A stretch of DNA of 13,627 nt. It comes from Brevundimonas sp. Lineage in GTDB: Bacteria > Pseudomonadota > Alphaproteobacteria > Caulobacterales > Caulobacteraceae. Under the pieces are notes generated by a model. The model ran no database searches and had not been told where the DNA came from. It saw only the letters and a list, made by a program, of their open reading frames with translations. A program made the position numbers and the translations under genes. The DNA lies in contig JADGMZ010000303.1 of NCBI GenBank assembly GCA_015234495.1, positions 1 through 13,627 of the forward strand, read 5' to 3'. Of this stretch, positions 1 to 13,627 are shown one piece after another (position 1 is the first letter of the stretch; the number at the start of each line of letters is the position of its first letter).

Positions 1-107
1 CGTTCCCTCCACCACTCAGCCCTACACAGGCGGAGTCTCTCTTCCCCTCCCCGGCGCTCTCCCGATCTTAACTTGCCCGCAGCGACCGGGCCGGGCGTTG
101 ATCGCGC

Positions 108-1925: not shown

Positions 1926-1934
1926 GACCGAGCT

Positions 1935-2591
1935 TTACGGCCGATAGAGGATGACGAGAAGGCCGACCACGATCAGGGCGAAGCCGAGCACCACGCCTTC
2001 ATAGCGGGCCCAGCGTTCGAGCCGGAGCACCGACCAGCCGGCCCGGGCCAGCAGGGTGAACAGGGCCATGCCGAGCACGGTGCCGACGGCGAAGACGACG
2101 GTCAGGGCGGCCAGCACCGCGGCCCCGCCCTGGGCCTGGTTGAGGTAGAAGGGCAGCAGGACTTCGCCGGGCGAAAGGGCCATGGTGGCGACCAGGGCGC
2201 CGAAGGCGGCGGCGTGGGAGACCGCCGGTTCCGGGCGCTCCAGCTCCGGACCGCCGGCCAGCTGCGGCCGCCGGACCAGGGACCTGACCAGGTAGAAGCC
2301 GCCGAAGACCAGCAGCAGGGCGGCCGACAGGTGCGGCAGGAGGCCGGCGATCCAGGTGTCGAGGGCCAGGCCCGCCAGCACGATCAGCCCGCCCACCGCG
2401 GCGGTGACGGCGACATGGGCCAGCCCCGCGACGACGACGGCGGCCATGACCCGGTCGAGAGCCCAGCGCTGGGCCCGACCGACGAGGACGAAGGGCAGCC
2501 AGTGGGTCGGCAGGGCGGCGTGCAGGAAGGCGGTGGTGAAGCCGAGGCCCAGCAGGGACAGGAGCATCGTCTGATCGGGGGCGGGCGTCAT
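1935..2591 (-). CDS. Polytopic inner-membrane protein, possible metal transporter (NicO/UreH-like)
   Basis: A 218-aa, very hydrophobic protein with about six membrane segments (roughly residues 9-30, 46-70, 83-103, 128-150, 155-178, 193-216). Notable polar or ligand residues sit inside membrane stretches: HAALPTHW near residues 24-31, a His in GLAHVAVT, and SPGEVLLPFYL near 139-149. The central loop is short and rich in Pro and Glu. The pattern, two repeats of three helices each opening with a conserved His or Pro-Gly-Glu motif, recalls the LysE/RcnA/NicO/UreH group of small transporters, but I do not recognise a specific family. A GGGGCGGAG purine run directly precedes the ATG. The gene sits just ahead of the CDF exporter and behind a palindromic operator candidate, so a role in metal homeostasis is inferred from context. 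Transport of another substrate, or a DsbD-like redox role, cannot be excluded. Confidence 0.75.
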   Translation of the reverse strand: MTPAPDQTMLLSLLGLGFTTAFLHAALPTHWLPFVLVGRAQRWALDRVMAAVVVAGLAHVAVTAAVGGLIVLAGLALDTWIAGLLPHLSAALLLVFGGFYLVRSLVRRPQLAGGPELERPEPAVSHAAAFGALVATMALSPGEVLLPFYLNQAQGGAAVLAALTVVFAVGTVLGMALFTLLARAGWSVLRLERWARYEGVVLGFALIVVGLLVILYRP

Positions 2592-2607
2592 CTCCGCCCC
2601 TGTAGCG

Positions 2608-2622
2608 TGTTACTTTATAACA
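2608..2622. promoter_or_regulatory. Palindromic operator candidate, Zur-box-like
   Basis: TGTTACTTTATAACA is an inverted repeat with perfect 5-bp arms (TGTTA/TAACA) around a 5-nt centre. It is an AT-rich island in very GC-rich DNA, centred 24 bp upstream of the 2591 start. Read on the minus strand it contains GTTATAAAGTAAC, which differs from the core GTTATnnnATAAC of known Zur sites at one position. It lies in the 55-bp gap between the acidic-protein gene and the metal-transport pair. Binding by Zur or another Fur-family protein is inferred. It may equally be, or overlap, a -10 element (TATAAA). Confidence 0.5.
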
Positions 2623-2646
2623 GTCGAGCCGGAATCGGCCGCCGGA

Positions 2647-3252
2647 TCAGAACAGCCAGCCGTCGTGATCGTTCAACAGGCCGATCTCGTCCGCCAGATC
2701 GCGGAAGCCGCCCTCGCCCGGATCGAGGGTGAGCATGTGGCCAGAGGCGCCGCCGAAGCCGAACGAGGGTTCGAGGGCGAGCTCGCCGGGACTGTCCAGT
2801 TCACCCGGAAGGACCAGCGGCAGATCGGCGTCCTTGGCGAGGATGAAGTCGTCGTCATCGAGGCCGGGCAGCACCTGGGCGACGTCGGCCTCCCTGGCCA
2901 GATCATGCGCCTCGCCGGAGCCCGGAAGGACCAGCGGCTCGACCGGATCGGCCCAGACCTCGGGACCGGGTTTCGAGAACGGCCGGGCTTCCTCCTGGAA
3001 ACCATCGGGAGACACATGCTCGCGGCCGGCCTGGAAGAGGAAGTCGCTCCCCGCCGGTCCCGCCAGCAGGGCGTCGAGGTCGACGCCGCGCAGGATGTCG
3101 ACGAAGGTCTGGTCGGAGGCGGACGCGGGCATGACGTCCTGATCGGCGTCGGGGCCGCGGCGCAGGGCATGCACGTCCGCTTCGTCGCCGAACAGCGAGT
3201 CCCGCGGGGCGAGGAGGTCGCCCGGTTTCCAGCCTGGTGCGCGGATGCTCAT
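2647..3252 (-). CDS. Acidic protein of unknown function with VLPG repeats
   Basis: A 201-aa protein I do not recognise. It is strongly acidic and rich in Asp, Leu, Pro and Gly, with no signal peptide or membrane segment. An N-terminal stretch (MSIRAPGWKPGD...) is followed by a hydrophobic block with VDILRGVDLDALLAG near residues 51-65. Three VLPG motifs follow at 108-111, 127-130 and 147-150, each trailed by an acidic segment (one contains DDDD), suggesting a degenerate repeat of about 20 residues. The C-terminus is DHDGWLF. I chose the ATG at 3252 because AAGGGG lies 5 nt upstream; an upstream in-frame ATG at 3276 would add only MRRRRRGV. Minus-strand codons have strongly GC-biased third positions, whereas the overlapping plus frame has an antisense-like composition. 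It is divergent from rplU and upstream of the metal-transport pair, with 55 bp between. Confidence 0.7.
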   Translation of the reverse strand: MSIRAPGWKPGDLLAPRDSLFGDEADVHALRRGPDADQDVMPASASDQTFVDILRGVDLDALLAGPAGSDFLFQAGREHVSPDGFQEEARPFSKPGPEVWADPVEPLVLPGSGEAHDLAREADVAQVLPGLDDDDFILAKDADLPLVLPGELDSPGELALEPSFGFGGASGHMLTLDPGEGGFRDLADEIGLLNDHDGWLF

Positions 3253-3359
3253 GACGCCCCTTCGACGGCGGCGCACTCCGGATAGCGCCGCTCGACGAGC
3301 CTAACCCCGGCGACCGGGCGGCGCAATCGCCCAAACGGCCCTGAAAGCCGGGTTTCGCG

Positions 3360-3387
3360 TTGACTCGGAAGGCTCGTTCCGTATATG
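3360..3387 (+). promoter_or_regulatory. Probable housekeeping promoter of rplU-rpmA
   Basis: TTGACT at 3360-3365 (-35) and TATATG at 3382-3387 (-10) are separated by 16 nt, a good match to the sigma-70/RpoD pattern. Transcription would start near 3394 and give a leader of about 60 nt before the rplU ATG. The -35 overlaps GACTC (3362-3366), a GANTC site of the kind methylated by CcrM in Caulobacterales. Confidence 0.65.
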
Positions 3388-3399
3388 TCGCCGCTCTTC

Positions 3400-3435
3400 G
3401 CCCGAGGGGGACCCCCGTCGGGCTTATTCTTTTTG
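3400..3435 (+). terminator. Terminator-like hairpin in the rplU leader (attenuator candidate)
   Basis: GCCCGA (3400-3405) pairs with TCGGGC (3418-3423). GGG (3406-3408) pairs with CCC (3414-3416), leaving one bulged G at 3417 and a GGACC loop. This 9-bp GC-rich stem is followed at once by TTATTCTTTTTG (3424-3435), which is the form of an intrinsic terminator. It lies between the predicted promoter and the rplU start, and no plus-strand gene lies close upstream that would need termination here. On the minus strand no T-run follows. Regulation of rplU by premature termination is inferred. Confidence 0.6.
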
Positions 3436-3455
3436 CGTTTCGCTGAGGCTTCAAC

Positions 3456-4064
3456 ATGTACGCGGTGATCAAGACCGGCGGCAAGCAGTACCGGGTTCAA
3501 CCGGGCGACGTCATCGTGGTCGAGAAGCTCGACGGCGAGGCCGGCTCGAACGTGTCGTTCGGCGACGTGCTGATGCTGGGCGGCGACAAGGGCGTGACCC
3601 TGGGCGCCCCGATGATCGCCGGCGCGACCGTCGCGGCGACGCTGGTCGAAACCCGCAAGGGCGAGAAGATCAAGATCTTCAAGAAGATCCGCCGTCAGGG
3701 CTATCGCCGCACCAACGGCCATCGCCAGATGGAATCGGTCCTGCGCATCACCGGCATCGAAGGCGCCGGCGAAAAGGCCAAGTGGGACGGCGAAACCTCG
3801 CTGATGACCAAGGCCGAGATGAACGCCCGCGCCCGCGGCCTGGCCCCGCGCGTCGAGGAAACCGAAGCCAAGGCCAAGCCGGCGAAGAAGGCCGCGGCCC
3901 CGAAGGCCGAAGCCGCCGAAGCGCCCGCCAAGGCCGAGAAGCCGGCCGCCAAGAAGGCCGCCGCTCCGAAGGCCGCCGCCGCCAAGGCTGAAAAGACCGA
4001 AACCAAGGCTCCCGCCAAGAAGGCCCCCGCCAAGAAGGCGGACAAGGCCGGCGACGAAGCGTAA
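3456..4064 (+). CDS. rplU: Large-subunit ribosomal protein bL21 with long basic tail
   Basis: Residues 1 to about 103 are a standard bL21 domain: it starts MYAVIKTGGKQYRV and contains the RNA-binding KIFKKIRRQGYRRTNGHRQ segment (74-91) followed by the closing strand. bL21 binds 23S rRNA early in 50S assembly. The family is usually about 103 aa, but this protein is 202 aa. From about residue 136 it becomes a low-complexity Ala/Lys/Pro/Glu tail with near-repeats such as KPAKKAAAPKA (141-151) and KPAAKKAAAPKA (162-173), resembling histone H1 tails. Such extensions are common in alphaproteobacterial L21, so this is not an artefact. rpmA follows 27 nt downstream in the same operon. Expression is probably driven by the promoter at 3360-3387 through a leader hairpin. 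Confidence 0.97.
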   Translation: MYAVIKTGGKQYRVQPGDVIVVEKLDGEAGSNVSFGDVLMLGGDKGVTLGAPMIAGATVAATLVETRKGEKIKIFKKIRRQGYRRTNGHRQMESVLRITGIEGAGEKAKWDGETSLMTKAEMNARARGLAPRVEETEAKAKPAKKAAAPKAEAAEAPAKAEKPAAKKAAAPKAAAAKAEKTETKAPAKKAPAKKADKAGDEA

Positions 4065-4091
4065 CAGTCAGACGAGAACGGGAGCAGACCT

Positions 4092-4370
4092 ATGGCTCAC
4101 AAGAAATCCGGTGGTTCGTCGCGCAACGGTCGCGACTCTCATTCCAAGCGCCTCGGCGTGAAGAAGTTCGGCGGCGAGAACGTTCTGGCCGGCAACATCC
4201 TCGTGCGTCAGCGCGGCACCACCTTCCACCCGGGTGACAACGTCGGCCTCGGCCGCGACCACACCCTGTTCGCCACCGCCACCGGCTCGGTCAAATTCAC
4301 CACCAAGCGTGGCGGCCGTTGTTACGTGTCGATTCTTCCGACCGCAGAACAGGCCATGGCCGCCGAGTAG
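4092..4370 (+). CDS. rpmA: Large-subunit ribosomal protein bL27
   Basis: A 92-aa bL27, a normal length. It begins [16 protein letters not shown], the basic flexible N-terminus that reaches towards the peptidyl-transferase centre. Unlike the Firmicutes form, it has no cleavable N-terminal extension. The rest matches the family ([40 protein letters not shown]). A GGGAG Shine-Dalgarno lies 8 nt before the ATG. It is the last gene of the rplU-rpmA operon, the usual order in bacteria, and a strong intrinsic terminator follows at 4441-4477. In many genomes the next gene is obg; here an acetyltransferase follows instead. Confidence 0.98.
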
Positions 4371-4388
4371 CGCGAGACCGACTGACAC

Positions 4389-4422
4389 CCGGATCGCGCA
4401 AGGCTCGAGAGCCGCGATCCGG
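4389..4422 (+). other. Hairpin downstream of rpmA
   Basis: CCGGATCGCG (4389-4398) pairs perfectly with CGCGATCCGG (4413-4422), a 10-bp stem. Inside it GCTC and GAGC (4403-4406/4409-4412) can also pair. No T-run follows, so it is not a terminator on its own. It lies between the rpmA stop and the real terminator and may protect the mRNA 3' end or assist termination. Confidence 0.6.
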
Positions 4423-4440
4423 ACCAAGGGATTATTTCCG

Positions 4441-4477
4441 CGGGGAGTCTGGATCACCAGGCTCCCCGTTTTCGTTT
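4441..4477 (+). terminator. Intrinsic terminator of rplU-rpmA
   Basis: CGGGGAGTCTGG (4441-4452) pairs along all 12 positions (one T-G wobble) with CCAGGCTCCCCG (4457-4468) around an ATCA tetraloop. TTTTCGTTT follows at 4469-4477. This is a textbook Rho-independent terminator. Confidence 0.88.
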
Positions 4478-4536
4478 CCCCGCCTCGAAGCCGTCCGAGC
4501 CCTCCAAGGAGGCGGCGCGAACACCGAGGCCGACCC

Positions 4537-5070
4537 ATGTGCGTGATCGAACCCTCTCCCGTCGTCGAGACGCGGCGCCTGGCCCTGCGCGCGCCCGGGG
4601 CCCAGGACGTGAGCCGCCTGGCCGCTCTCGCCAACGACGCCGACGTGGCGCGGATGACCCTGCGCATGCCGCATCCCTATTCGATCGACGACGCCGAGGC
4701 CTTTGTGCTGGCCGTCGCCGGACAGGATCCCGCTCGCGCGGCCACCTTCCTGATCGAGCACGAGGACCACGGGCCGGTCGGCGTCATCGGCCTGTTCGAG
4801 GATGGCGATCCGGCGCCGGAGGTCGGCTACTGGATCGGGCGGCCGTTCTGGGGCCGCGGCTACGCCACCGAGGCGCTGGAAGGCGCGCTGGTCTGGGCGT
4901 CGCGGCGCTGGCGGCGGCGCGCGCTGGTGGCGGGGCATTTCTCGGACAATCCCGCCTCGGGCCGTGTGCTGGAGAAGGCGGGCTTCCTGTACACCGGCGA
5001 GGTGCGCCGGGGGTTCAGCCGGGCGCGCCGGGCCGAGACCGAGACCCGGCGGATGGTCTGGCTGGCCTGA
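4537..5070 (+). CDS. GNAT-family N-acetyltransferase (RimJ/RimL-like)
   Basis: A 177-aa acetyl-CoA-dependent acetyltransferase. The RimJ/RimL-type opening is seen (VETRRLALRAPGAQDVSRLAALAND). VGVIGLFE and PEVGYWIGRPFWGRGYATEAL (about 94-113) form motif A, where GRGYAT is the pyrophosphate-binding turn. NPASGRVLEKAGF (138-150) is motif B. The family modifies protein N-termini, amino acids or small molecules; the substrate cannot be inferred here. The frame is open far upstream into rpmA, so the start matters. ATG 4537 begins the homologous part, and GAGG lies 8 nt ahead of it; a stronger AAGGAGG (4506-4512) is too far away. The gene follows the rpmA terminator and converges on a small membrane-protein gene with 10 bp between stops. 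Confidence 0.9.
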   Translation: MCVIEPSPVVETRRLALRAPGAQDVSRLAALANDADVARMTLRMPHPYSIDDAEAFVLAVAGQDPARAATFLIEHEDHGPVGVIGLFEDGDPAPEVGYWIGRPFWGRGYATEALEGALVWASRRWRRRALVAGHFSDNPASGRVLEKAGFLYTGEVRRGFSRARRAETETRRMVWLA

Positions 5071-5080
5071 CGGCGACGCC

Positions 5081-5278
5081 TCAGCCGAAGGCGGTCGGCC
5101 CCACGATGGCGGCGACCGCGACGGCGCCGCCGACGATGGCGACCACCGCTCCGGCGATGAAGGCCATCCAGGTGCGGGCCGCGCGCTGACGGCGCAGTCC
5201 GCTGGTCTTGACCGACCGGATGACGACGCCCGGCTTGGGCCCGAACACTTCCGAGCCGGAAATATTATGCTGGGACAT
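5081..5278 (-). CDS. Small single-pass membrane protein (unknown)
   Basis: A 65-aa protein. It has a polar N-terminal half ending in a basic patch (GLRRQRAARTW, about 27-37), then one hydrophobic helix of about 24 residues rich in Val, Ala and Gly, ending GPTAFG. By the positive-inside rule the N-terminus is predicted to be cytoplasmic. AGGGAG lies 8 nt before the ATG, which supports translation. I do not recognise a family. It is convergent with the acetyltransferase gene, and nothing nearby suggests a function. Confidence 0.65.
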   Translation of the reverse strand: MSQHNISGSEVFGPKPGVVIRSVKTSGLRRQRAARTWMAFIAGAVVAIVGGAVAVAAIVGPTAFG

Positions 5279-5367
5279 GAACGCGCTCCCTGATCCACCG
5301 CCCCTTGCGGGTCAGGAGACCGAAGCGGTGCGGACAAGGCGAAACAATGGCGAACGGCGATCACCCA

Positions 5368-5382
5368 CCGATCCGTGATCGG
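5368..5382. repeat. Short perfect inverted repeat between small genes
   Basis: CCGATC-CGT-GATCGG gives 6-bp arms around 3 nt. It sits between the broken BA14K-like gene and the 65-aa gene, both on -. No T-run follows on either strand, so an operator or mRNA hairpin is more likely than a terminator. It could also be chance. Confidence 0.4.
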
Positions 5383-5400
5383 ATGAACGGCGTTCCAGCC

Positions 5401-5605
5401 TCAACCGCAGAACACCAGACGGCCGCTCCAGGCGCGGTAATAGCCGCTGCGGGCGTCATAGGAGCGGTAGCGCGCGGCGCACCAGCCCATCCGGCCGGGG
5501 TCATAGTCGCCCGGGCGGTCCAGCTGGCTGCGCCAGTCGAAGGCTGGTGCGGTCGCCAGTCCGCCCGGCGGCGAGGATCACGGCGATGAGCAACGGGCGG
5601 CGCAC
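5401..5605 (-). pseudogene. BA14K-like exported protein, frameshifted
   Basis: The minus strand has a perfect AGGAGG (plus 5613-5618) 7 nt before a GTG at 5605. The GTG opens a signal-peptide-like stretch, MRRPLLIAVILAAG. That frame then runs into unrelated sequence and a stop. In a neighbouring frame the sequence continues as GLATAPAFDWRSQLDRPGD and ends with the BA14K-type motif MGWCAARYRSYDARSGYY...FCG and TGA (5401-5403). That second frame has its own TGA upstream and no start. The span is 205 nt, one more than a multiple of three. Removing one base from the GGG run (plus CCC 5564-5566) would give a clean 67-aa secreted protein. BA14K-like proteins are small exported proteins with a conserved WC...RYRSYD core. 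Genuine decay and an assembly error are both possible. Confidence 0.75.
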
Positions 5606-5661
5606 GGTCAATCCTCCTGGGCGGCCAGGTACGCGGCCGGACGAGACGGATATGCGAACGC

Positions 5662-6207
5662 TTACAGGGTGACGGAGACGCGCCCGTTGCGGGTGGTGAC
5701 GTGGCGCATTAGGACGACGCGATCCTCGCCGCCGGCGCTGACCGGGGCGATGATGAACCAGCCCCCGGCGGGCAGGCCGGAGAAGCTGAAACGGCCGTTC
5801 TGGCAGGTCGTCGAGCGGACATAGGAGCGATAGTCGGCGTTGGGGTCGGGCACGGTCCGGGCGCGGATGATGGCCTCCGGCACGGCCGCGCGGTCGGTCG
5901 ATCCATAGAGGGTGCGGAAACGCGCGCGGGTGTAGGGCGTGTCCGGCGTCAGGCCGACCGAGCCGGTGCAGTCGAAGGCCTGGCCGCCGCGACGATAGTC
6001 GATCCGTCCGTCGATCGAGGCGGCGCCCGAGGCGGTCGACCAGGCGAAGTCCTGGGCCTGGAACACGGCCGACGTGGACCCCGGACGCGGGCCGGGGCCG
6101 AAGCCGCCGTCCATCGGCACGGTACCGCAGGCGGCCAGCGCCCCGCCGAAGGCGAGGACGGCGATCAGGGGAAGGACGGGCTTACGGGCGATCATCTGGG
6201 CAGCCAT
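5662..6207 (-). CDS. Putative lipoprotein of unknown function
   Basis: A 181-aa protein starting MAAQMIARKP with a hydrophobic stretch ending in the lipobox L-A-A-C (C27), so it is probably lipid-anchored in the envelope. After a Gly/Pro-rich linker the mature part has two Cys (in FDCTG and TTCQNG) that could form a disulfide. The final strands (GRFSFSGLPAGGWFIIAPV... and NGRVSVTL) resemble the turn-and-strand style of carboxypeptidase-regulatory-like beta-sandwich domains. I chose 6207 because GGAGGG lies 4 nt upstream; an ATG at 6240 lacks a ribosome site and would spoil the signal peptide. The broken BA14K-like gene starts 56 nt downstream on the same strand, so the two may have been one operon. 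Function unknown. Confidence 0.8.
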   Translation of the reverse strand: MAAQMIARKPVLPLIAVLAFGGALAACGTVPMDGGFGPGPRPGSTSAVFQAQDFAWSTASGAASIDGRIDYRRGGQAFDCTGSVGLTPDTPYTRARFRTLYGSTDRAAVPEAIIRARTVPDPNADYRSYVRSTTCQNGRFSFSGLPAGGWFIIAPVSAGGEDRVVLMRHVTTRNGRVSVTL

Positions 6208-6345
6208 GGGCTCCCTCCGTGGCAGGCGCGGGTCGAACATCCGGATGAGACGCTGAACGCTGCGGGAAGGTCAAGGTTGCGACGCCCCGGACGGTGGTCC
6301 AAAACCTCGCGGCGACCCGGCGGAAGACCGGGTATAGGGAAGGTC

Positions 6346-7548
6346 ATGACAGTCACGTTTGACGACATTCTGGCGGCGCGAGAGCGGATCGCCGGTCAGG
6401 TCGATCGCACCCCGGTGCGCCATTCCCGCAAGCTGTCGCAGCTGACCGGCGCCGAGGTCTGGATCAAGTTCGACAACCTGCATTTCACCGGCAGCTTCAA
6501 GGAGCGCGGCGCGCTGAACCGGCTGCTGCAACTGTCGGCCGAGGAGCGCAAGCGGGGCGTCGTCGCCGCCAGCGCCGGCAACCACGCCCAGGCCCTGGCC
6601 TATCACGGCGCCCGGCTGGGCGTGCCGGTGACCATCGTCATGCCCGAGGGCACCCCCTTCGTGAAGGCGGACGGCACCCGCGCCCACGGCGCCACGGTGG
6701 TGATCAAGGGCGCCGATTTCTCCGGCTCGACGGAGGAGGCACACCGTTTCCGCGACGAGGAGGGGATGGTCTTCATCTCGGCCTTCGACGACGCCGGCAT
6801 CGTCGCCGGCCAGGGGGTCTGCGGCCTGGAATTCCTCGAGGACGCGCCGGACCTGGACGTGCTGATTATTCCGGTCGGCGGCGGCGGGCTGATCGCCGGC
6901 TCGGCCATCGCGGCCAAGGCGCTGAAGCCGTCGATTCGAATCTTCGGGGTCGAGGCGGCCATGTATCCGTCCTTCACCGCCCGCCGCCGCGGCGAACCCC
7001 CTAAATGCAGCGGCCAGACCATCGCCGAGGGCATCGCCATCAAGGCGGTCGGCGACATTCCGTTCGCCCTCGCCGATCCGCTGATCGAGGACGTGCTGGT
7101 CTGCGGCGAGGCGGACTTCGAGAAGGGCGTGGCCTTCCTGGCCACCTTGGAGAAGACGGTCGCCGAGGGGGCCGGCGCCGGGGGCCTGGCGGCGATGCTG
7201 GCCTATCCCGACAAGTTCCGCGGCCTGAAGGTCGGCATCGAACTGACCGGCGGCAACATCGACTCGCGGATGCTGGCCGTGGTCCTCAACCGCGAGCTGG
7301 TGCGTGAGAAGCGGCTGGTGGTCTACCGCATCATCGGCGACGACCGGCCCGGCATGCTGGCCAAGATGAGCGCCATCATCGGCGGTCTCGGCGGCAACAT
7401 CATCGACGTGGTGCACAACCGGCTGGCGCTGGACGTCCCGGCCAAGGGCGCGGAGTTCGACATCATGGTCGAGACGCGCGGCGAGGCGCATGCGACAGAG
7501 ATCAGACGAGAACTGGAAGAGGCGGGCTATGCGCTACGGATGGGCTAG
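6346..7548 (+). CDS. ilvA: Threonine ammonia-lyase with C-terminal ACT domain
   Basis: A 400-aa PLP enzyme that deaminates L-threonine to 2-oxobutanoate (and often serine to pyruvate), feeding isoleucine synthesis or threonine breakdown. The PLP lysine is K52 in GSFKERGA. SAGNHAQA (76-83) is the substrate/PLP loop and GGGGLIAG (178-185) binds the cofactor phosphate. From about residue 325 an ACT domain is visible (YRIIGDDRPGMLAKMSAIIG...NIIDVVHNR), which usually gives allosteric control by an amino acid. A single ACT and about 400 aa match the shorter, TdcB-like-plus-ACT class rather than the E. coli IlvA of about 510 aa with two ACT-like modules. The symbol is therefore by reaction, not strict orthology. 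ATG 6346 has GGGAAGG just upstream. The 3' end overlaps the next gene by 20 nt. Confidence 0.93.
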   Translation: MTVTFDDILAARERIAGQVDRTPVRHSRKLSQLTGAEVWIKFDNLHFTGSFKERGALNRLLQLSAEERKRGVVAASAGNHAQALAYHGARLGVPVTIVMPEGTPFVKADGTRAHGATVVIKGADFSGSTEEAHRFRDEEGMVFISAFDDAGIVAGQGVCGLEFLEDAPDLDVLIIPVGGGGLIAGSAIAAKALKPSIRIFGVEAAMYPSFTARRRGEPPKCSGQTIAEGIAIKAVGDIPFALADPLIEDVLVCGEADFEKGVAFLATLEKTVAEGAGAGGLAAMLAYPDKFRGLKVGIELTGGNIDSRMLAVVLNRELVREKRLVVYRIIGDDRPGMLAKMSAIIGGLGGNIIDVVHNRLALDVPAKGAEFDIMVETRGEAHATEIRRELEEAGYALRMG

Positions 7549-8077
7549 GACGGCGGCGGCTCTGGCCCTGGCGGCGGCGCTGTCGGCCTGCGGCGGAGAC
7601 CCTGCCCCCGGCGTGGACCCCGAGGCCGCGGCCAATCTGCGCGCGGCCGGCTTCTTCATGGAGACCAACGCCAAGGCGGACGGCGTCCGGACCCTGGCCT
7701 CCGGCGTGCAGTACAAGGTGGTGCAGGCGGGCCCGGCGGGCGGCGAGCGGCCGGACGGCAACGATCTGGTGCGGGTCGACTACGAGGGTTCGCTGACCGA
7801 CGGGACGGTGTTCGACAGTTCCTTCCAGCGCGGCGCCCCGGCGGCGTTTACGGTCGAGGACGGCATTGCGGGCTCGCTGATCCCGGGCATGCGCGACGCC
7901 CTGCAGCACATGACCGTCGGCGACGAATGGCTCGTCTACATCCCGCCGGAGCTGGGTTATGGCGACAGCCAGGTCGGCGAGATTCCGGCCAACAGCGTGC
8001 TGGTCTTCCGGCTGAAGCTGCTGGAGGTCGCGCCCGTGCCGGGCGGCGCCCGGGCCCTGGATGTCGCCCACGGCTGA
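7529..8077 (+). CDS. FKBP-type peptidyl-prolyl isomerase, lipoprotein
   Basis: A 182-aa envelope foldase candidate. The signal sequence MRYGWARTAAALALAAALSAC ends in lipobox L-S-A-C (C21), predicting a lipid-anchored periplasmic protein. A short helical N-part (AAANLRAAGFFMETNAKADGV) resembles the FkpA/Mip linker. The FKBP fold covers about 75-167: VRVDYEGSLTDGTVFDSSFQRG, then LIPGMRDAL, where the active-site Trp of many FKBPs is replaced by Met, then YIPPELGYGD and IPANSVLVFRLKLLEV. Isomerase activity is likely but could be weakened by the Met. ATG 7529 lies inside the 3' end of the threonine ammonia-lyase gene (20-nt overlap). Its GAGG site is also inside that gene, which suggests translational coupling. 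Confidence 0.93.
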   Translation: MRYGWARTAAALALAAALSACGGDPAPGVDPEAAANLRAAGFFMETNAKADGVRTLASGVQYKVVQAGPAGGERPDGNDLVRVDYEGSLTDGTVFDSSFQRGAPAAFTVEDGIAGSLIPGMRDALQHMTVGDEWLVYIPPELGYGDSQVGEIPANSVLVFRLKLLEVAPVPGGARALDVAHG

Positions 8078-8105
8078 CGGCCGGCTGAGCGGCGGGCACT
8101 CCGTC

Positions 8106-8147
8106 GGGCGCCGGGCGCTGGGCGCTGGGCGCTGGGCGCTGGCGCGG
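8106..8147 (+). repeat. Tandem 7-bp repeat (GGGCGCT)
   Basis: Five consecutive 7-bp units: GGGCGCC at 8106-8112, then four exact GGGCGCT units at 8113-8140, followed by a degenerate GGCGCGG. It begins 29 bases after the FKBP stop. Replication slippage would make copy number variable between strains; no function is apparent. Confidence 0.85.
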
Positions 8148-8445
8148 TTTCGGAGATTCGGCGTGCCAACAGCGCCAAGCGCGCGGAAAGAAAGCACGCC
8201 GGATCATTCGGTTAGCCGGATCGGCGCCACCAGCCGGGGCGAAGCTGTGCCAGATTATCGGAAATTCCGTGGGGAAACGTCGCTGGAGCGCCACGTTCGT
8301 CATTCGGTTTTCAAAGACCGCCACGGCGCCGACGGGCCGCTATCCGTGAAATGGGAGGGCCTCAACCAGGGTCAAGCCTGATTCCGGAATTAATTCCTAT
8401 GACGATTGGGGCCCCGGACGTCTGACCGGGACCGAGACTGTCGAA

Positions 8446-8486
8446 CAGCGGACACTCCGGACCGCTGCTGTGGGTGGAAAGCGGAC
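8446..8486. repeat. Dispersed palindromic repeat, part-copy A
   Basis: A hairpin CAGCGG/CCGCTG (8446-8451/8462-8467) is followed by GGGTGGAAAGCGGAC (8472-8486). The second part matches the right part of repeat B (GGGTGGAAAGCAGAC) at all but one position. It ends exactly where the stop codon of the minus-strand lipoprotein gene begins. Confidence 0.6.
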
Positions 8487-8990
8487 TTAACGCTTTTCTG
8501 ACGCGGGTTGGCTGGCGTGCAGCCCGTCTTCAGGCGTGGGGACAGGATCGTCCGGTCCAATGTGTGCGGGTCCCGTGGGAACCGGAGTGGTGAGTTCTGA
8601 CCGCGTGCAGACAGCTATGGTGCGGCTCTCGTAGTAGGCGCGATAAGTCGCTGCAAACTCGGCGAGATACTGGCCTGTGTCGGGAAACCACGCGGCTTTG
8701 TCGATGAGGTTGTAGCCGTCCGATGGTCGGTCACGAAGAACGATCAAACCTGGGTGCTGACTGCTTATGGGATAGGCGCTTCTGCATTCCCCTGTGCAAT
8801 ACCGTCCGGCTTCCAGATCGACGTGAATAACTTGTTCGTAAGGCGTGGCCTCTGAACGCACATAGCGCGTCCCGCGACAGTTCAAATCAAATCGCATATG
8901 CATAGCCGTATCTGCGCCCGTAGCCTCAGTGGAGACTTGGGGCGAGCAGCCGGAGAGCATGGCTGCTGATGCGATGATGAGGCGTTTCAT
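8487..8990 (-). CDS. Putative lipoprotein of unknown function (accessory)
   Basis: A 167-aa protein with a short signal peptide and lipobox L-S-G-C (MKRLIIASAAMLSGC, C15). The mature part carries Cys38, Cys65, Cys69 and Cys128. Four cysteines in an exported protein suggest two disulfides, with RYCTGEC as a tight pair. There is a Tyr-rich segment (TYRAYYESR) and a Pro/Asp-rich tail (PVPTGPAHIGPDDPVP). I recognise no family. The ribosome site is weak (GAGAG about 9 nt before the ATG). Codon third positions are less GC-biased than in the flanking housekeeping genes, consistent with acquisition by transfer. The stop abuts repeat A, and repeat B begins 25 nt upstream of the start. Confidence 0.72.
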   Translation of the reverse strand: MKRLIIASAAMLSGCSPQVSTEATGADTAMHMRFDLNCRGTRYVRSEATPYEQVIHVDLEAGRYCTGECRSAYPISSQHPGLIVLRDRPSDGYNLIDKAAWFPDTGQYLAEFAATYRAYYESRTIAVCTRSELTTPVPTGPAHIGPDDPVPTPEDGLHASQPASEKR

Positions 8991-9015
8991 AGAAGCACTC
9001 TCACCCCGGGAACCG

Positions 9016-9066
9016 ATGTCCGCAACGGGTCGGGAGTAGACGGTCGCCTAAGGGTGGAAAGCAGAC
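9016..9066. repeat. Dispersed palindromic repeat, copy B (51 bp)
   Basis: It starts ATGTCCGCAACGGGTCGGG and ends GGGTGGAAAGCAGAC. It matches copy C (9516-9566) at 44 of 51 positions with no gap, exactly 500 bp away in the same orientation. The ends (TGTCCGC / GCAGACA) are nearly complementary, so the element can fold back. It lies between the divergent starts of two accessory genes. Confidence 0.85.
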
Positions 9067-9093
9067 ATTCGTTTCAGCGACGTTGGCGATCCG

Positions 9094-9127
9094 TTCAGCA
9101 GTCCCGATCATAATCGGGACTGCTGAA
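9094..9127. repeat. Perfect 15-bp inverted repeat (hairpin) ahead of accessory gene
   Basis: TTCAGCAGTCCCGAT (9094-9108) and ATCGGGACTGCTGAA (9113-9127) are perfectly complementary around a CATA loop. This is the strongest hairpin in the window. No T-run follows on either strand, so it is not a simple terminator. It ends 12 nt before the probable TTG start at 9140 and borders that gene's GGGAG ribosome site, so it may act on translation or be a protein-binding site. Confidence 0.9.
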
Positions 9128-9139
9128 TGGGAGATTGCC

Positions 9140-9496
9140 TTGCGGAATATCGCTTCGACTGCGGGCATCGGGGCCTTGTTGCTTCTCAACGTCGGCTGCC
9201 AAGGCGGCACCCGCGCATCAGCCGAGGACATTGACTGCTTGGCGAGCTACCTGCTGCTGACTTCCAGCAGCACCGCGCCGGTCCACGACACGTTGCCCAG
9301 CCTCTCTTACTTCTATGGACGGTTGGATGCTCAAGCGTCTGAGGGCGGCTGGGAAAAGGAAGCCGTCTCACGGATGCGCAGCATGGCTAAGGACATTCCT
9401 GCGACCCAAGCTACGGCGAGGGCCTGCGATGAACGAATGGTAGCCCTCACCCGCCAGCACTCGACTTTGATCGAAGCTGAGATTCGTGGGCTCTGA
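9140..9496 (+). CDS. Exported small protein of unknown function (accessory)
   Basis: A 118-aa product if translation starts at TTG 9140. I prefer this start because GGGAG lies 7 nt upstream and it gives a proper signal peptide (MRNIASTAGIGALLLLNVGC). An ATG at 9083 is also open but would put the 15-bp hairpin inside the coding region and bury the signal. The Cys at 20 could be a lipidation site, although LNVGC is a poor lipobox. Further Cys occur in DIDCLASYL (C33) and ARACDER. The mature part looks helical (LSYFYGRLDAQASEGGWEKEAVSRM). I do not recognise the family. The gene lies between two 51-bp direct repeats, B and C, and is divergent from the lipoprotein gene. Confidence 0.65.
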   Translation: MRNIASTAGIGALLLLNVGCQGGTRASAEDIDCLASYLLLTSSSTAPVHDTLPSLSYFYGRLDAQASEGGWEKEAVSRMRSMAKDIPATQATARACDERMVALTRQHSTLIEAEIRGL

Positions 9497-9515
9497 TTTC
9501 CGGCGGAGGTCTCCG

Positions 9516-9566
9516 ATGTCCGCAACGGGTCGGGAGCGGACGGTCGCATGAGAGCGGGAAGCAGAC
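9516..9566. repeat. Dispersed palindromic repeat, copy C (51 bp)
   Basis: Direct copy of repeat B (44/51 identical). Its left part forms a perfect 6-bp stem, GTCCGC (9518-9523) with GCGGAC (9536-9541), around a 12-nt loop. It lies 19 nt after the stop of the plus-strand gene and ends one base before the TAG (9568-9570) of the minus-strand DUF3885-like gene, so it fills the convergent gap between them. Confidence 0.85.
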
Positions 9567-9567
9567 G

Positions 9568-10188
9568 CTAGCTAGCACCACCATCGAATACGGCAGCCAT
9601 TCGAGCCCGATCATAGTCCAAGAGCCACCGATCAAACTCGCCGTAGACCGAGGCAACGCTCTCAGCAGACAAGCCTTTGAGGTCCATACCTCTGTCGTCA
9701 TAGACGTGGAGAAGCACGGCGGCGTCGGGGTCGAGGAGGTAGCTCACGACGGCGGCGTTGGGTTCGACCGGCATCTCGTCGGCGATGGAACACCAGAGCA
9801 GAATATCGTGTTGGCTACGGGACGCGGACAGATCGAACGCAGCCCAAAAACACCTGACGGCCTCGGGATCCTCTCCTTCGAGCCAAGGCGGTAGCCCTTC
9901 CCATGAAAGGATCGGCTGGGAAGTGTCGAACCCGATGGATGCCAGCGAGGACAGACCGGGTTTTCGCGGACGGCCAGTCAGGTCCGATGGCTCCTCTGCC
10001 CACATCACCACGGCGATCAGTCGCCGCGACGCCCGAAAAACTCTGTCGGCCACCGCGCGCGCTCGATCATAGGCTTGGCTGAACCGGCGCACCGGGTCCT
10101 CAAGATTTGAGAGGTCACCGCCAAGTTCGAACCGCAAGGAATACGGCGATTGCTCAAACGGACTTAGCCAGCCAGGACCGAGGTTCAT
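9568..10188 (-). CDS. DUF3885-like protein
   Basis: A 206-aa soluble protein without signal peptide or membrane segment. The C-terminal part matches my memory of the DUF3885 signature: HVYDDRGMDL (161-170), then a short linker and FDRWLLDYDRARM (185-197). The N-terminal part opens GPGWLSPFEQSPYSLRFELGGDL and includes YDRARAVADRVF and a Trp-rich block (LSWEGLPPWLEGEDPEAVRCFW). The biochemical role of DUF3885 is not known to me. It occurs scattered among bacteria, often beside mobile or toxin/immunity genes, which fits this accessory setting but proves nothing. The ATG has only a weak upstream site (GTAGG). Repeat C abuts its 3' end and repeat D lies 25 nt upstream of its start. Confidence 0.75.
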   Translation of the reverse strand: MNLGPGWLSPFEQSPYSLRFELGGDLSNLEDPVRRFSQAYDRARAVADRVFRASRRLIAVVMWAEEPSDLTGRPRKPGLSSLASIGFDTSQPILSWEGLPPWLEGEDPEAVRCFWAAFDLSASRSQHDILLWCSIADEMPVEPNAAVVSYLLDPDAAVLLHVYDDRGMDLKGLSAESVASVYGEFDRWLLDYDRARMAAVFDGGAS

Positions 10189-10213
10189 CCTACGACCCTA
10201 CCATGCCCGCCAA

Positions 10214-10242
10214 GGTCCGCTATGGGTCGGAAGCGGCTATTG
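10214..10242. repeat. Dispersed palindromic repeat, copy D (short)
   Basis: It contains GTCCGC (10215-10220), GGGTCGG (10224-10230) and AAGCGG (10231-10236), matching the left unit of copies B and C but with an imperfect right arm (GCGGCT instead of GCGGAC). It lies just upstream of the DUF3885-like gene. Confidence 0.7.
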
Positions 10243-10266
10243 GACCCGACTTACCTGCCCCTCCCC

Positions 10267-10296
10267 GTCATCCTCGGGCTCGACCCGAGGATCAGA
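10267..10296. repeat. REP-like palindromic element, left copy
   Basis: The copy contains ATCCTCGGGCTCGACCCGAG, nearly self-complementary (ATCCTCGGG...CCCGAGGAT). It matches the reverse complement of 10370-10399 at 29 of 30 positions. I recall very similar GTCATCCTCGGGCTTGACCC elements as common intergenic repeats in alphaproteobacteria. Confidence 0.85.
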
Positions 10297-10369
10297 CCGT
10301 CCGGCGCCCCGTCGAAGATCGACGGTCGCGCTCGCGGGGCCGTCACCACCGCACAGCCCGCCTCTCGCC

Positions 10370-10399
10370 TCTGATCCTCGGGTCAAGCCCGAGGATGAC
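10370..10399. repeat. REP-like palindromic element, right (inverted) copy
   Basis: Inverted partner of 10267-10296 (29/30), with a 73-nt spacer. The pair can form one long stem or two separate hairpins. Related ATCCCGGCC-type sequence continues at about 10431-10440. This is typical REP/BIME arrangement. Confidence 0.85.
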
Positions 10400-10742
10400 G
10401 ACGACGGCGGGTGGATTCCCGGACCCTGTCATCCCGGCCAAACCGCGCCAGACCCTGCCATCCCGTGCACCCTGTTCGAGCCACGACGCTTTGGCGGAGA
10501 GCCAATGGGCCGAGGGATCACGCGAAGAGATCATGCGCCCGCCGGCGGCCCCGCGCTGACACTGGCGCGAGGACGGCTCCCACGCGGGCGGGCCACGCCG
10601 CCCCACGACCGATCCTGACGCACCGCCGCCCTACACTGCGCTGGATCGGTCTTTGACATCGTTGCACAGCATCCCTCTCGCCCGGGATCGGCTGCTCAAG
10701 AGTGTCGGGATGGCAGGGTTTGGCGATTTTTCAGCGACAGGG

Positions 10743-12593
10743 TCAGTCGGCGCGGAACTGCAGCTCCGCCAGCCGGGCGTACAGCCCCCCGCGCGCCATC
10801 AGCGCCGCGTGGGTCCCCTCCTCCACCACCTGGCCGTCGTCCATCACCACGATCCGGTCGGCGCGCAGCACGGTGGCGAGGCGGTGGGCGATGACGAGGG
10901 TCGTGCGCGTCGACATGGCCTTGTCGAGCGCCGCCTGCACCAGCCGCTCGTTCTCGGCGTCGAGCGCCGAGGTCGCCTCGTCGAGCAGCAGGATCGGGGC
11001 GTCGCGGACCAGGGCCCGGGCGATGGCCATGCGCTGGCGCTGGCCGCCGGACAGGCTCTTGCCGCGTTCGCCCAGCGGCGTGTCGAAGGCTTCCGGCAGG
11101 GCTTCGATGAAACCGAGGGCCTGGGCCTCGTCGGCCGCCGCCTTGACTTCATCTTCTGTCGCAGCCTCCCGGCCGAAGCGGATGTTTTCCATGGCCGAAC
11201 CCGAGAACAGCGGGGCCTCCTGCGAGACCCAGGCGAAGCGGTTCCGGACGGCGACCGGATCGGCCTCGCGCACGTCGACGCCATCCACCGACACCACGCC
11301 GGACTGGGGGTCGTAGAAGCGCAGCAGCAGGCGGAAGACGGTGCTCTTGCCCGCGCCCGAGGGCCCGACCAGGGCCACGGTCTCGCCGGGCCGCACGGTC
11401 AGGGAAAAGCCCTTCAGCGCCGGCAGGTCGGGCCGCCCGGGATAGCTGAACTGCACCGCCGACATCGACACCTCGCCGACCGGCGGCTCGGGCAGGGCGC
11501 GCGGCGCGGCGGGCGGCGCGATCGACGGCGTGCTGCGCATCAGCTCGTCGATCCGCTCCATGGCGCCGGCGGCCTTCTGCACGTCGCCCCAGCTCTCCCC
11601 CAGCGCCCCGACCGCGCCGGCCACGAACACCGCCAGCAGCACGAACTGCAGCAGGGCCCCGGGGCTCATCCGCCCGGCGATGACGTCCTGCGCGCCCAGC
11701 CACAGCACCAAGGTGACGCCGCCGAACATCACGGCGATGACCAGGGCGGTCATCAGGGCCCGGGCCCGGATACGGGCCAGGGAGACGCCGAAAGCGTCCT
11801 CGACCGCCTCGCCGAACCGGTCGATGGCGCTCTTCTCGCGGCCGAAGGCCTGTACCGTCTCGATGGCGTCGACGCTCTCGCCGGCGAAGCCCACGGCCCC
11901 GGCGAACCGGTCCTGCGAGGCCACGGTCAGCCGGCGCACCACCCGCCCGAACAGGAACAGCGGCCCCAGCAGCAGCGGCACCACCAGCATCACCAGCCCG
12001 GTCAGCTTGGGGCTGACCACGAACAGCAGGATGGTCCCGCCGATCAGGGTCAGGAAGTTGCGCACGGCGTAGGACACCGAGGTGGTCAGCAGGGTCTCGA
12101 CCAGGGCGATGTCGGTGGTCAGCCGCGACAGCACCTCGCCCGTGCGCATGCGCGCATAGAAGGCCGGATCCAGGGTCAGGATGCGCTCGAACAGCCCCTT
12201 GCGCACGTCGGCGACGACGCGCTCGCCGGTCTTGGTGACGAAGAAGTAGCGCACCGCCGTGGCCAGGCCGAGGAACAGGGCGTTGGCCGCCAGCACCAGG
12301 AACCACAGGTTCAGCTGCTCGCCGCCGTTCTCGAAACCGTTGTCGATGGCGCCGCGCGCCGCCACCGTCAGGGCCAGGGAGGCGGCCGTGGACATCATCA
12401 GCCAGAAGACCGCCATGGCCATATGGCCCTTGTGCCGCAGGGCGTAAGGCATCAACCGGGCCAGCGGGCGGATGTCGCGCCGCTTGGCCCGCCGCGCCCC
12501 GGCCTCGCCCATCTGCTCGGCCAGCAGGGCGCCGGCGCCGGGCCGTCCGTGGGGGTCGGCGGCGTCGGGAGCGGAGGCGGTCGTATCGGTCAT
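10743..12593 (-). CDS. ABC exporter half-transporter, MsbA-related
   Basis: A 616-aa fused permease-ATPase that would work as a homodimer in the inner membrane. The transmembrane domain spans about residues 45-340 with roughly six helices. The ATPase domain has Walker [10 protein letters not shown] (410-418), the Q-loop in [12 protein letters not shown], signature LSGGQ (514-518), Walker B ILLLDE with catalytic E539, D-loop SALD, and H-loop His570 in IAHR, so all catalytic parts are intact. It resembles the MsbA-related alphaproteobacterial group. Lipid, LPS or drug export is plausible, but the substrate cannot be read from sequence. I chose ATG 12593 (MTDTTASAP) because AGAGG lies 8 nt upstream; an ATG at 12644 would add 17 unlikely residues. 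It is divergent from rpmE with 131 bp between the starts. Confidence 0.93.
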
Positions 12594-12724
12594 GGCCGGG
12601 CCTCTTGCCCCGGAACGGCCCCCGGTGTAAACGCCGCCGCTCATTCCCGCCGCCGCCCGGCGGGTTTCTCATTTTCGCGCACAGACGGTCGGCATCGTCA
12701 CCGCGCAGAGACCGGACAACGACC

Positions 12725-12949
12725 ATGAAGGCCGATACCCACCCCGACTACCACTTCATCACCGTGACGATGACCGATGGTACGACCTACCAGACGCGCT
12801 CGACCTACCAGAAGGAAGGCGCCGTCCTGAACCTGGACATCGATCCGCTGACCCACCCGGCCTGGACCGGCGGCAACCAGCACCTGATGGACCGCGGCGG
12901 TCGCGTGTCGCGCTTCAACAACAAGTTCGGCGGCTTCATCAAGAAGTAA
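12725..12949 (+). CDS. rpmE: Large-subunit ribosomal protein bL31, zinc-free form
   Basis: A 74-aa bL31, recognised from [15 protein letters not shown] near the start, [16 protein letters not shown] in the middle and [16 protein letters not shown] at the end. bL31 bridges the two ribosomal subunits. The CxxC zinc ribbon of the C-plus form is absent and there is no Cys at all, so this is the C-minus type, which does not need zinc. ATG 12725 gives the normal length; the longer upstream frame reads antisense to the ABC gene. The ribosome site is weak (AGAG and CCGGA are the only purine-rich stretches). An intrinsic terminator follows, so it is probably transcribed alone. Confidence 0.95.
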
Positions 12950-12992
12950 ACGGTCTGGCTTTCGGGCCACACCCGCGTCGCAGACGATCACG

Positions 12993-13029
12993 AAGGCGTC
13001 GGTCCCCGGGCCGGCGCCTTTCTGTTTCC
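12993..13029 (+). terminator. Intrinsic terminator of rpmE
   Basis: AAGGCGTCGG (12993-13002) pairs with CCGGCGCCTT (13011-13020), 10 pairs including one T-G wobble, around an 8-nt loop. TTTCTGTTT follows from about 13019. It lies 44 nt after the rpmE stop. Confidence 0.8.
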
Positions 13030-13033
13030 CCGG

Positions 13034-13088
13034 AACGCCGATAACATGACGGCGTTGGACCACCGGGGCGGGAACGCAGGTCCTGCGT
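13034..13088. other. Two short hairpins upstream of the L,D-transpeptidase gene
   Basis: AACGCCG/CGGCGTT (13034-13040/13050-13056) and ACGCAG/CTGCGT (13074-13079/13083-13088) are perfect inverted repeats in the 82-bp gap between the rpmE terminator and the next gene. There is no T-run. They may be promoter operators or leader structure; chance is possible in such GC-rich DNA. Confidence 0.4.
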
Positions 13089-13111
13089 GGAAACGGGCAA
13101 GAGCAGCAGTG

Positions 13112-13627
13112 ATGAATCGACGGCAACTGGGTCTGGGCGCGGCGGCGGCGGCCCTCGCGTCGGCAAGCGGGCTGGCCGCGCAGGCGCAGACCCGCGATCC
13201 GTCCGCCATCGCCTTCTACGACAGCTTCAACGACCAGCTGGCCCGCCTGCCCTCGACCATCCAGCCGGACGTCCGCGCCTTCTATGAGATGAACGGCTGG
13301 CGCCCTGTGTGGACGCCGGAGCGCCTTCGCGGGCTGCAGGTCGCCGCCGGCCGGGCCGAACGCCACGGCCTGTCCCAGAGCGACTTCTTCGACTTCGACG
13401 CCCTCGCCGCCGACCGCATGTCGGCCGAGATGCGCACCACGGCGGCCGCCCTCGTCTACGGCCGCGTGCTGGCCGAGGGCCGGGTCCGGCCCGAGACGGT
13501 CGAAGACCTGTGGGAGATGCAGAAGAACCGCGTCGATCTGCCGCTCGGCCTGAATGACGCCCTGGCCCAGAACCGGCTGGTCGACTGGTACGAGGGCCTG
13601 GCCCCGACCGACATCGGCTATTCCAAC
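13112..13627 (+). CDS. L,D-transpeptidase, YcbB-like, N-terminal part (cut by window end)
   Basis: The first 172 codons of a gene that runs off the window. The N-terminus MNRRQLGLGAAAAALASASG carries a twin-arginine and a hydrophobic, Ala-rich stretch ending LAAQAQT, so the protein is exported, possibly by Tat. The mature part matches the scaffold domain of large YcbB/LdtD-type L,D-transpeptidases: a Trp-rich start (YEMNGWRPVWTPERLRGLQ), then RAERHGLSQSDFFDFDAL and LVYGRVLAEGRV. The catalytic YkuD domain with its Cys would lie beyond the window. These enzymes make 3-3 cross-links in peptidoglycan or attach proteins to it. The ribosome site is weak (AAGAG about 11 nt before the ATG). Confidence 0.82.
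   Translation, partial: MNRRQLGLGAAAAALASASGLAAQAQTRDPSAIAFYDSFNDQLARLPSTIQPDVRAFYEMNGWRPVWTPERLRGLQVAAGRAERHGLSQSDFFDFDALAADRMSAEMRTTAAALVYGRVLAEGRVRPETVEDLWEMQKNRVDLPLGLNDALAQNRLVDWYEGLAPTDIGYSN

Follow-up and report, generated by a model that had tools for sequence, protein, structure and literature searches.

Gene-cassette capture is known chiefly from integrons, and these are described as extremely rare in Alphaproteobacteria, with 6 complete integrons, in passages of the IntegronFinder 2.0 paper (PMC9024848). In Acinetobacter, genes of the dif (pdif) modules are bounded by short sites with two 11-bp arms and a 6-bp centre, according to PMC6449649. Here we describe three small genes interleaved with four repeats at positions 8440-10250 of a 13,627-nt stretch of Brevundimonas sp. 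DNA (Alphaproteobacteria, Caulobacteraceae; assembly GCA_015234495.1, contig JADGMZ010000303.1, positions 1 to 13,627, forward strand), the whole of which we refer to as the window. We consider it likely, on sequence grounds, that this block is part of a gene-cassette array moved by site-specific recombination. The cassette reading is well supported, membership of the integrons is not supported, and a recombinase of about 200 amino acids, encoded by relatives, is the likely acting enzyme. The locus may belong to an integron-like gene-swapping system built from different parts, in which cassettes are probably shuffled by this small recombinase, carried in the middle of the row in relatives.

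The block holds three small unrelated genes, encoding a lipoprotein-like, an exported and a DUF3885 protein, between four repeats (A to D) whose sites all lie on the plus strand, in the order given by the initial annotation. Repeat A (8460-8489, plus strand) has a degenerate left arm and the centre GGGTGG, and scores 16.6 with a position weight matrix (PWM) that was built from relatives and partly trained on loci later scored with it. Cassette gene 1 (8487-8990, minus strand) is a near-orphan for a small lipoprotein-like protein with a lipobox recognised by eye; its GC content at third codon positions (GC3) is 0.605, and a search of 5.8 billion proteins listed 7 proteins, the window's own included. 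Repeat B (9015-9069, plus strand) is a doublet with units 25 bp apart, the first with centre GGGTCG and PWM score 25.5, the second with centre GGGTGG and score 19.8. Cassette gene 2 (9083-9496, plus strand; GC3 0.70), delimited from the open reading frame (ORF) list, encodes a small exported protein; judged by eye, its likelier start is the in-frame TTG at 9140, which is preceded by a purine-rich run and accompanied by a lipobox-like LNVGC. A Pfam scan of the window proteins assigned no family to cassette gene 1 or 2. Repeat C (9515-9569, plus strand) is again a doublet, with unit 1 scoring 35.2 and unit 2 under 5; B and C form a direct repeat with 87% identity across 54 nt. Cassette gene 3 (9568-10188, minus strand) encodes the DUF3885 protein (Pfam PF13021, 93.6 bits, cut-off 23), and repeat D (10212-10241, plus strand) is a single site, GTCCGCTAT-GGGTCG-GAAGCGGCT, which scores 36.8 and matches the search pattern with 2 mismatches. 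The two minus-strand stop codons said to sit 0-1 nt from a repeat end are borne out by the coordinates, one lying within A (8487-8489) and the other at the end of C (9568).

These sites score 16.6-36.8 against a maximum of 12.0 in 60 dinucleotide-Markov copies of the window, so that the repeat is far above chance. The GC content of 8440-10250 is 0.603 and that of the remaining window 0.702, and GC3 is 0.61-0.70 in the three cassette genes and 0.90-0.95 in five other window genes; the block is therefore compositionally foreign, in agreement with the plainer base composition first remarked on. No Rfam match to the window reached gathering scores. A search of the window's own genome assembly (2.16 Mb, 375 contigs, 76% complete) that allowed up to 3 mismatches gave 3 pattern matches, all inside the block, and one additional doublet was found on contig C371. 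Homologues of the DUF3885 protein occur in 6 of 119 genomes of the family, the window's own genome among them, and a scan of genome contigs with this protein found no relative.

In relatives, the repeat is a 30-bp site made of two 12-bp inverted arms flanking an asymmetric 6-bp centre, with the consensus AATGTCCGCTWT-GGGTSG-AAAGCGGACATT. It is present in 39 of the 119 family genomes at up to 2 mismatches, where a reversed control pattern gave none; at up to 3 mismatches, four named genomes gave 215 real matches and the control a single match in one genome. Exact arms, searched as a strict pattern, were found in 5 of 385 genomes of the class. Across 284 distinct sites, the conservation profile is approximately symmetric, and the centre varies about as little as the arms, save for C or G at position 17. 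The same arms with other centres occur in Sphingomonas, Rhizobium, Hyphomicrobium, Lysobacter and others (at least 120 stretches). On Hyphomicrobiales and other contigs (L069, L131, L139, L157), units with the same arms form composites of two or three, spaced about 46 bp from each other and again often co-oriented, with different centres: GGGTCA, CGGGGGT, TGGCTA, and TGGCAC or GTGCCA. Other intergenic composites (L117, L126, L136 from Lysobacter, L146, L150) often have a GGGTCG unit followed by an inverted TGGCCG unit about 59 bp on. Words such as SALPPKADI, common in rhizobial hypothetical proteins, presumably resemble these arms, joined to other centres, when read as protein; searching the literature for them listed nothing relevant.

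We interpret the site as a target for a protein, two-fold symmetric and with a centre that sets its direction. A different view is that the repeats are self-spreading palindromes of the repetitive extragenic palindromic (REP) kind, which settle by stop codons and maybe end transcripts, the genes being whatever lies in poorly constrained islands. The shape of the repeat speaks partly for this: one perfect Caulobacter copy folds well (z -4.0), covariation occurs at arm pairs 12-19 (z 4.5) and 2-29 (z 2.7), and other groups have different centres and multi-unit forms. Pair 10-21 covaries slightly (z 2.0), and z exceeds 2.5 in two of the twelve arm pairs. Against it, covariation is absent from the six pairs that join positions 4-9 to 22-27 (z -0.7 to 0.8), and conservation in the would-be loop matches that of the stem. 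Where pairs covary, the cause could be a mixture of lineages or some pairing; such a mixture, or recombination in the centre, could obscure the signal in either direction. One S. sediminicola copy does not fold well (z 0.2), and single-strand folding of the window copies is like that of shuffles (z -0.55 to 0.57). A hairpin was disfavoured on account of this folding and because clear covariation is confined to two of the twelve arm pairs. Since A is degenerate and the window copies fold no better than shuffles, the word palindromic suits the consensus of the relatives better than the window copies; the four repeats proposed at the outset are confirmed.

The arrangement of the repeats bears on the same question. 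They are clustered in islands, where each repeat usually comes with roughly one small gene: a simple codon score called 181 genes, with a median of 142 aa, in 228 intervals of 200-2000 bp that separate co-oriented repeats. Orientation agrees in 320 of 339 neighbouring repeat pairs (60-3000 bp apart, 86 loci), and 14 of the 19 discordant pairs, in Sphingomonas relatives, flank a tyrosine recombinase gene of about 200 codons with repeats facing outward on both sides. Replication-strand bias was rejected as the source of this coherence: orientation switches between close islands of the complete S. sediminicola chromosome (minus at 6-19 kb, plus at 21-29 kb), so it is not a replichore effect. It is true that stop codons lie closer to the repeats than start codons do (group medians of 16-39 bp and 44-147 bp, in groups with more than one gene), as REP-like elements would have it. 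However, orientation is coherent even though the genes lie on either strand relative to GGGTSG (62 same, 130 opposite), and entire gene-plus-repeat units are common to unrelated neighbourhoods, which leaves REP-like spreading unlikely. Random insertion of a palindrome is likewise disfavoured by orientation, cassette sharing and the position of the recombinase. The cargo is diverse, with 116 cassette proteins matching 86 Pfam families, the commonest of which has 3 members. One member of the rifampin ADP-ribosyltransferase family and one of the beta-lactamase family are included.

Movement of whole cassettes is indicated by the sharing of intervals between loci. A blastn comparison of 426 intervals with the loci gave 18 full-length rows, one of which was 100% identical, flanks included, and was dropped as the same genome. 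In 9 of the other 17, which include two pairs counted from both sides (L065/L117 and L215/L427), both ends of the match fall within 12 bp of a repeat; neither 400-bp flank matches in 6 of these 9, and one neighbour is in common in 3. For example, a 312-bp cassette is found at two islands of Rhodanobacteraceae ZG21-1, and two Sphingomonas species share 702 of 709 bp and 514 of 520 bp at 94-97% identity. Locus L424 contains the same 327-bp cassette twice (945-1271 and 12164-12490), about 11 kb apart and 90% identical, with both ends at sites. Junctions were read at the 12 ends of six shared pairs. At three ends (pair 1 left, pair 2 right, pair 3 left) identity switches at the centre, and at two (pair 4 right, pair 5 right) it stops just inside the right arm. 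Two ends are not a clean fit, since identity begins in the right arm at pair 6 left, where one copy has no recognisable site, and pair 4 left has differences in both the centre and the right arm. The remaining five are uninformative, two being alike through the right arm, two lying inside a shared two-cassette block and one, pair 5 left, setting a doublet against a single site. Though few, the junctions fit a crossover in or beside the centre.

A search with PF00589 in ten genomes placed a small recombinase gene exactly between the divergent arrays of S. sediminicola and S. daechungensis, and relatives of this recombinase are found in 37 of 71 genomes of the S. sediminicola genus. We parsed 24 of 30 recombinase loci, the other six having been missed by the motif filter. 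Relative to the gene, upstream repeats of the parsed loci are 21 minus and 1 plus and downstream repeats 27 plus and 1 minus. Eight of the 24 have no repeat at all, and of the 16 that do, 12 have repeats facing outward on both sides, 3 have them downstream only and 1 has them inward. In the six unparsed loci, the left repeats are minus and the right repeats, where there are any, are plus. Across 16 loci, counted to at most 20 kb, there are 71 minus and 8 plus repeats on the left of the recombinase, 7 of those 8 from a single locus (L424), and 69 plus and 1 minus on the right. In the window's family, a relative of the recombinase was found in 17 of 119 genomes (E <1e-60), and sites reaching PWM >=12 accompany the gene in 6 of 20 such loci. 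For the window's own genus, a site stands about 35 bp past the recombinase stop codon in L288-L290, and L291 has a weak one (PWM 7.9).

The PF00589 matches place these proteins in the tyrosine recombinase family, together with residues R48, K76, H145, R148, H171 and Y180, which are invariant in 21 aligned recombinases and which we take to be the R-K-H-R-H-Y active-site residues with their catalytic role. Of three recombinases compared with protein family models, two matched the archaeal XerA type best (52-55 bits, cut-off 220) and the third XerC (53 bits), none reached an XerC or XerD model at cut-off (cut-offs >300), and the closest solved chains are XerD (E 2e-5). At genome level in the S. 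sediminicola genus, the 18 carriers of the closest recombinase clade have a median of 32.5 sites and a minimum of 3, against a median of 12 in the other 53 genomes, 12 of which have none (p 9e-4); 19 genomes with more distant or partial relatives have a median of 22. Relatives of the recombinase also occur in 369 of 72,556 plasmid records and in 3 phage records; three plasmid records that were inspected had no site at PWM >=12. One of the three, a Methylobacterium plasmid, has an arm-pair element about 150 bp after its recombinase relative (L438:7675), with 2 mismatches in the arms and GGAGGCA as its centre. A de novo search beside the 20 family recombinase genes gave no convincing other repeat, most top matches looking by eye like coding repeats. 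Four recombinase relatives without an adjoining GGGTSG (L292, L294, L295, L303) have by eye a common flank motif, AATGTC..TTCC.GG...CC..GGC...TGGCGC, which is perhaps a site of their own.

Could ordinary homologous recombination between repeats of 30-56 bp, with no dedicated enzyme and the recombinase as a passenger, produce the same picture? Direct repeats would preserve orientation, arrays occur without a recombinase, in 8 of the 17 shared rows an end falls away from any detected repeat, and repeats of this length may presumably suffice for weak RecA exchange. On the other hand, the recombinase stands precisely at the orientation reversal in 14 loci, five readable junctions fall at the centre or a little way into the right arm, and a tyrosine recombinase requires just such a site, two-fold symmetric around a fixed asymmetric centre. 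We regard enzyme-free exchange as improbable and a site-specific recombinase as the likely agent.

Several observations nevertheless weigh against a cassette system driven by this recombinase. Five of the 19 discordant repeat pairs have no explanation, the two recombinase-locus repeats of L376 point inward, the reverse of the usual layout, and two arm pairs covary as described above. In the 8 shared rows just mentioned, one end lies 18-1120 bp from a detected repeat. Elsewhere, only 1 of 6 loci with a DUF3885 homologue has a site nearby. In the window's family, 14 of the 20 recombinase loci lack a site at PWM >=12, and in the window's genus, every site seen within 4 kb is downstream of the recombinase (L288-L290). 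No recombinase homologue was found at E 1e-8 in the window's own assembly, which is 76% complete, or in the array-rich Caulobacter genomes G025 and G003; the PF00589 search gave no small-protein recombinase in G503, and in Rhodanobacteraceae ZG21-1 it gave 9 matches in frames of 319-754 aa, none near 200. The absence of an integrase noted in the initial annotation thus stands for this incomplete assembly but not for the relatives, which carry a recombinase where arrays diverge. Finally, 34 genomes of the S. sediminicola genus without a recombinase match have a median of 8.5 repeats and up to 97, and because such genomes still hold repeats, the association between recombinase and repeats at genome level is modest.

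The flanks of the block show where the window array came to lie. Upstream is a gene for an FKBP-type peptidyl-prolyl isomerase (7490-8077, plus strand; Pfam PF00254), and homology between the window and its nearest relatives (L391-L393, by blastn) breaks off at 8079-8081, just past the FKBP stop codon. Genomes G073 and G537 have the empty site: the FKBP stop codon is followed by 6 bp and then by the stop codon of a convergent glutathione S-transferase (GST) gene, identified by Pfam, and this locus contains no repeat at PWM >=12. In G519, the space from FKBP to a truncated GST contains a 257-aa ORF (weak codon score, no Pfam match) and repeats scoring 12 and 28. The window genome's own GST gene is on C371, with a 95-aa ORF and the doublet between GST and the contig end, and the orientation of this doublet is as expected for an array between FKBP and GST. 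It is probable, taking the best explanation as a whole, that the window array is an array without a recombinase, inserted behind the stop codon of FKBP in an ancestor of this genome. The proposal that genes are carried between the repeats by recombination is supported by the clustered, co-oriented repeats, by the cassettes recurring beside unrelated neighbours (6 clear cases) and by the empty site in relatives. The contrary picture in the initial annotation, an even spread of the repeat and three genes syntenic in all relatives, is not what was found, as the repeats are unevenly spread and the array is absent from this locus in G073 and G537.

Downstream of the block lies an ABC transporter gene (10743-12644, minus strand; Pfam). 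A conserved FKBP-ABC neighbourhood was rejected as the empty site, which is FKBP-GST, given that FKBP and the ABC transporter gene occupy separate contigs in G073, G519 and G537. A single site begins at the stop codon of the ABC transporter gene in G537. The join between array and ABC transporter contains a 38-nt inverted-repeat pair (10259-10407, no strand assigned), found by repeat search and distinct from A-D, and homology between the window and G073 resumes at 10406. Because the ABC transporter sits on another contig in G073 and G537, the join of D to this gene would have arisen through rearrangement between two arrays or, alternatively, through mis-assembly.

Taken together, a cassette would comprise a single small gene, or sometimes a pair, with one 30-bp site, to which the asymmetric GGGTSG centre gives direction. 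Strand exchange would occur in or beside the centres of two sites of the same orientation, so that a cassette could exit as a circle and enter at another site. In the Sphingomonas relatives, the recombinase gene lies between two outward-facing sites from which arrays extend both ways, and in the window's own genus the sites found are on its downstream side only. The window array may once have had such a recombinase nearby. We also raise, tentatively and as a proposal that we rate slightly below even, that this is a second, independently evolved cassette platform of Alphaproteobacteria and some Gammaproteobacteria, in which a minimal tyrosine recombinase and outward double-stranded core sites would sustain two diverging single-gene arrays, could rejoin arrays at different loci and would draw on a pool of mostly unstudied accessory genes.

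A cassette system with another recombinase and other sites would explain how small accessory genes are swapped one at a time in these bacteria. Many uncharacterised cassette genes would become open to study, the GGGTSG site could serve as a search key, and intergenic islands of orphan genes may prove to be mobile. No paper describing this repeat or such arrays was found by title or abstract among the matches listed in searches of open papers, which does not prove absence from print.

Integrons are the obvious comparison, and a true but diverged integron, with the recombinase as IntI and the repeats as attC sites, would have the same layout of a recombinase gene beside an array of one-gene units, with recombinase-less arrays elsewhere, as in the CALIN (clusters of attC sites lacking integron-integrases) outlined in PMC9024848. 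The likeness extends to fixed site orientation, to accessory, mostly unrelated cargo and to one-gene cassettes with co-oriented sites, as in the pairs and intervals counted above. The three recombinases even show a trace match to integron-integrase models. However, this match is 12.8-15.5 bits where TIGR02249 has a cut-off of 265, and, judged by the models, the recombinase of about 200 aa is not an IntI-type integrase. The repeats were said at the outset not to resemble attC, and we agree: RYYYAAC...GTTRRRY pairs show no excess, numbering 0, 0, 2, 0 and 0 in five array stretches, against 0.15, 0.15, 1.39, 0.67 and 0.90 expected, and the sites are short and conserved in sequence, the opposite of attC as it is described in the relevant part of PMC9024848. 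In addition, gene strand is free here, and arrays flank both sides of the recombinase in the Sphingomonas relatives. A single attI with a one-sided array does not describe these relatives, because sites face outward on both sides in 12 of 16 loci, whereas the window's genus has them downstream only (L288-L290). Taking these points together, we consider a diverged integron highly improbable, and a cassette system with its own recombinase the better account.

Three other described systems resemble parts of these arrays. REP elements and other bacterial palindromic repeats are also short, intergenic, palindromic and close to stop codons, but the repeats here have a coherent orientation, cassette exchange at the repeats, a conserved centre and a tyrosine recombinase at the point of divergence. 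The FimB/FimE invertases are similar in size (model length 198-200), and in the Sphingomonas relatives the recombinase gene likewise lies between inverted sites; however, scores against NF007370 and NF007371 are 23.6-24.9 and 16.7-22.6 bits, far from the cut-offs of 221 and 222, and the recombinase here bounds cassette arrays. The dif modules of Acinetobacter share the movement of genes as modules and, comparing geometry alone, a site of 11-6-11 against 12-6-12 here. They differ in that the host XerC/XerD act on them, while here a recombinase gene lies within the array. Those modules reportedly lie between inversely oriented sites, whereas the array sites here are direct repeats, and the arms here are presumably unlike those of dif. 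On the best reading that these comparisons allow, the arrays would work like integrons or Acinetobacter dif modules.

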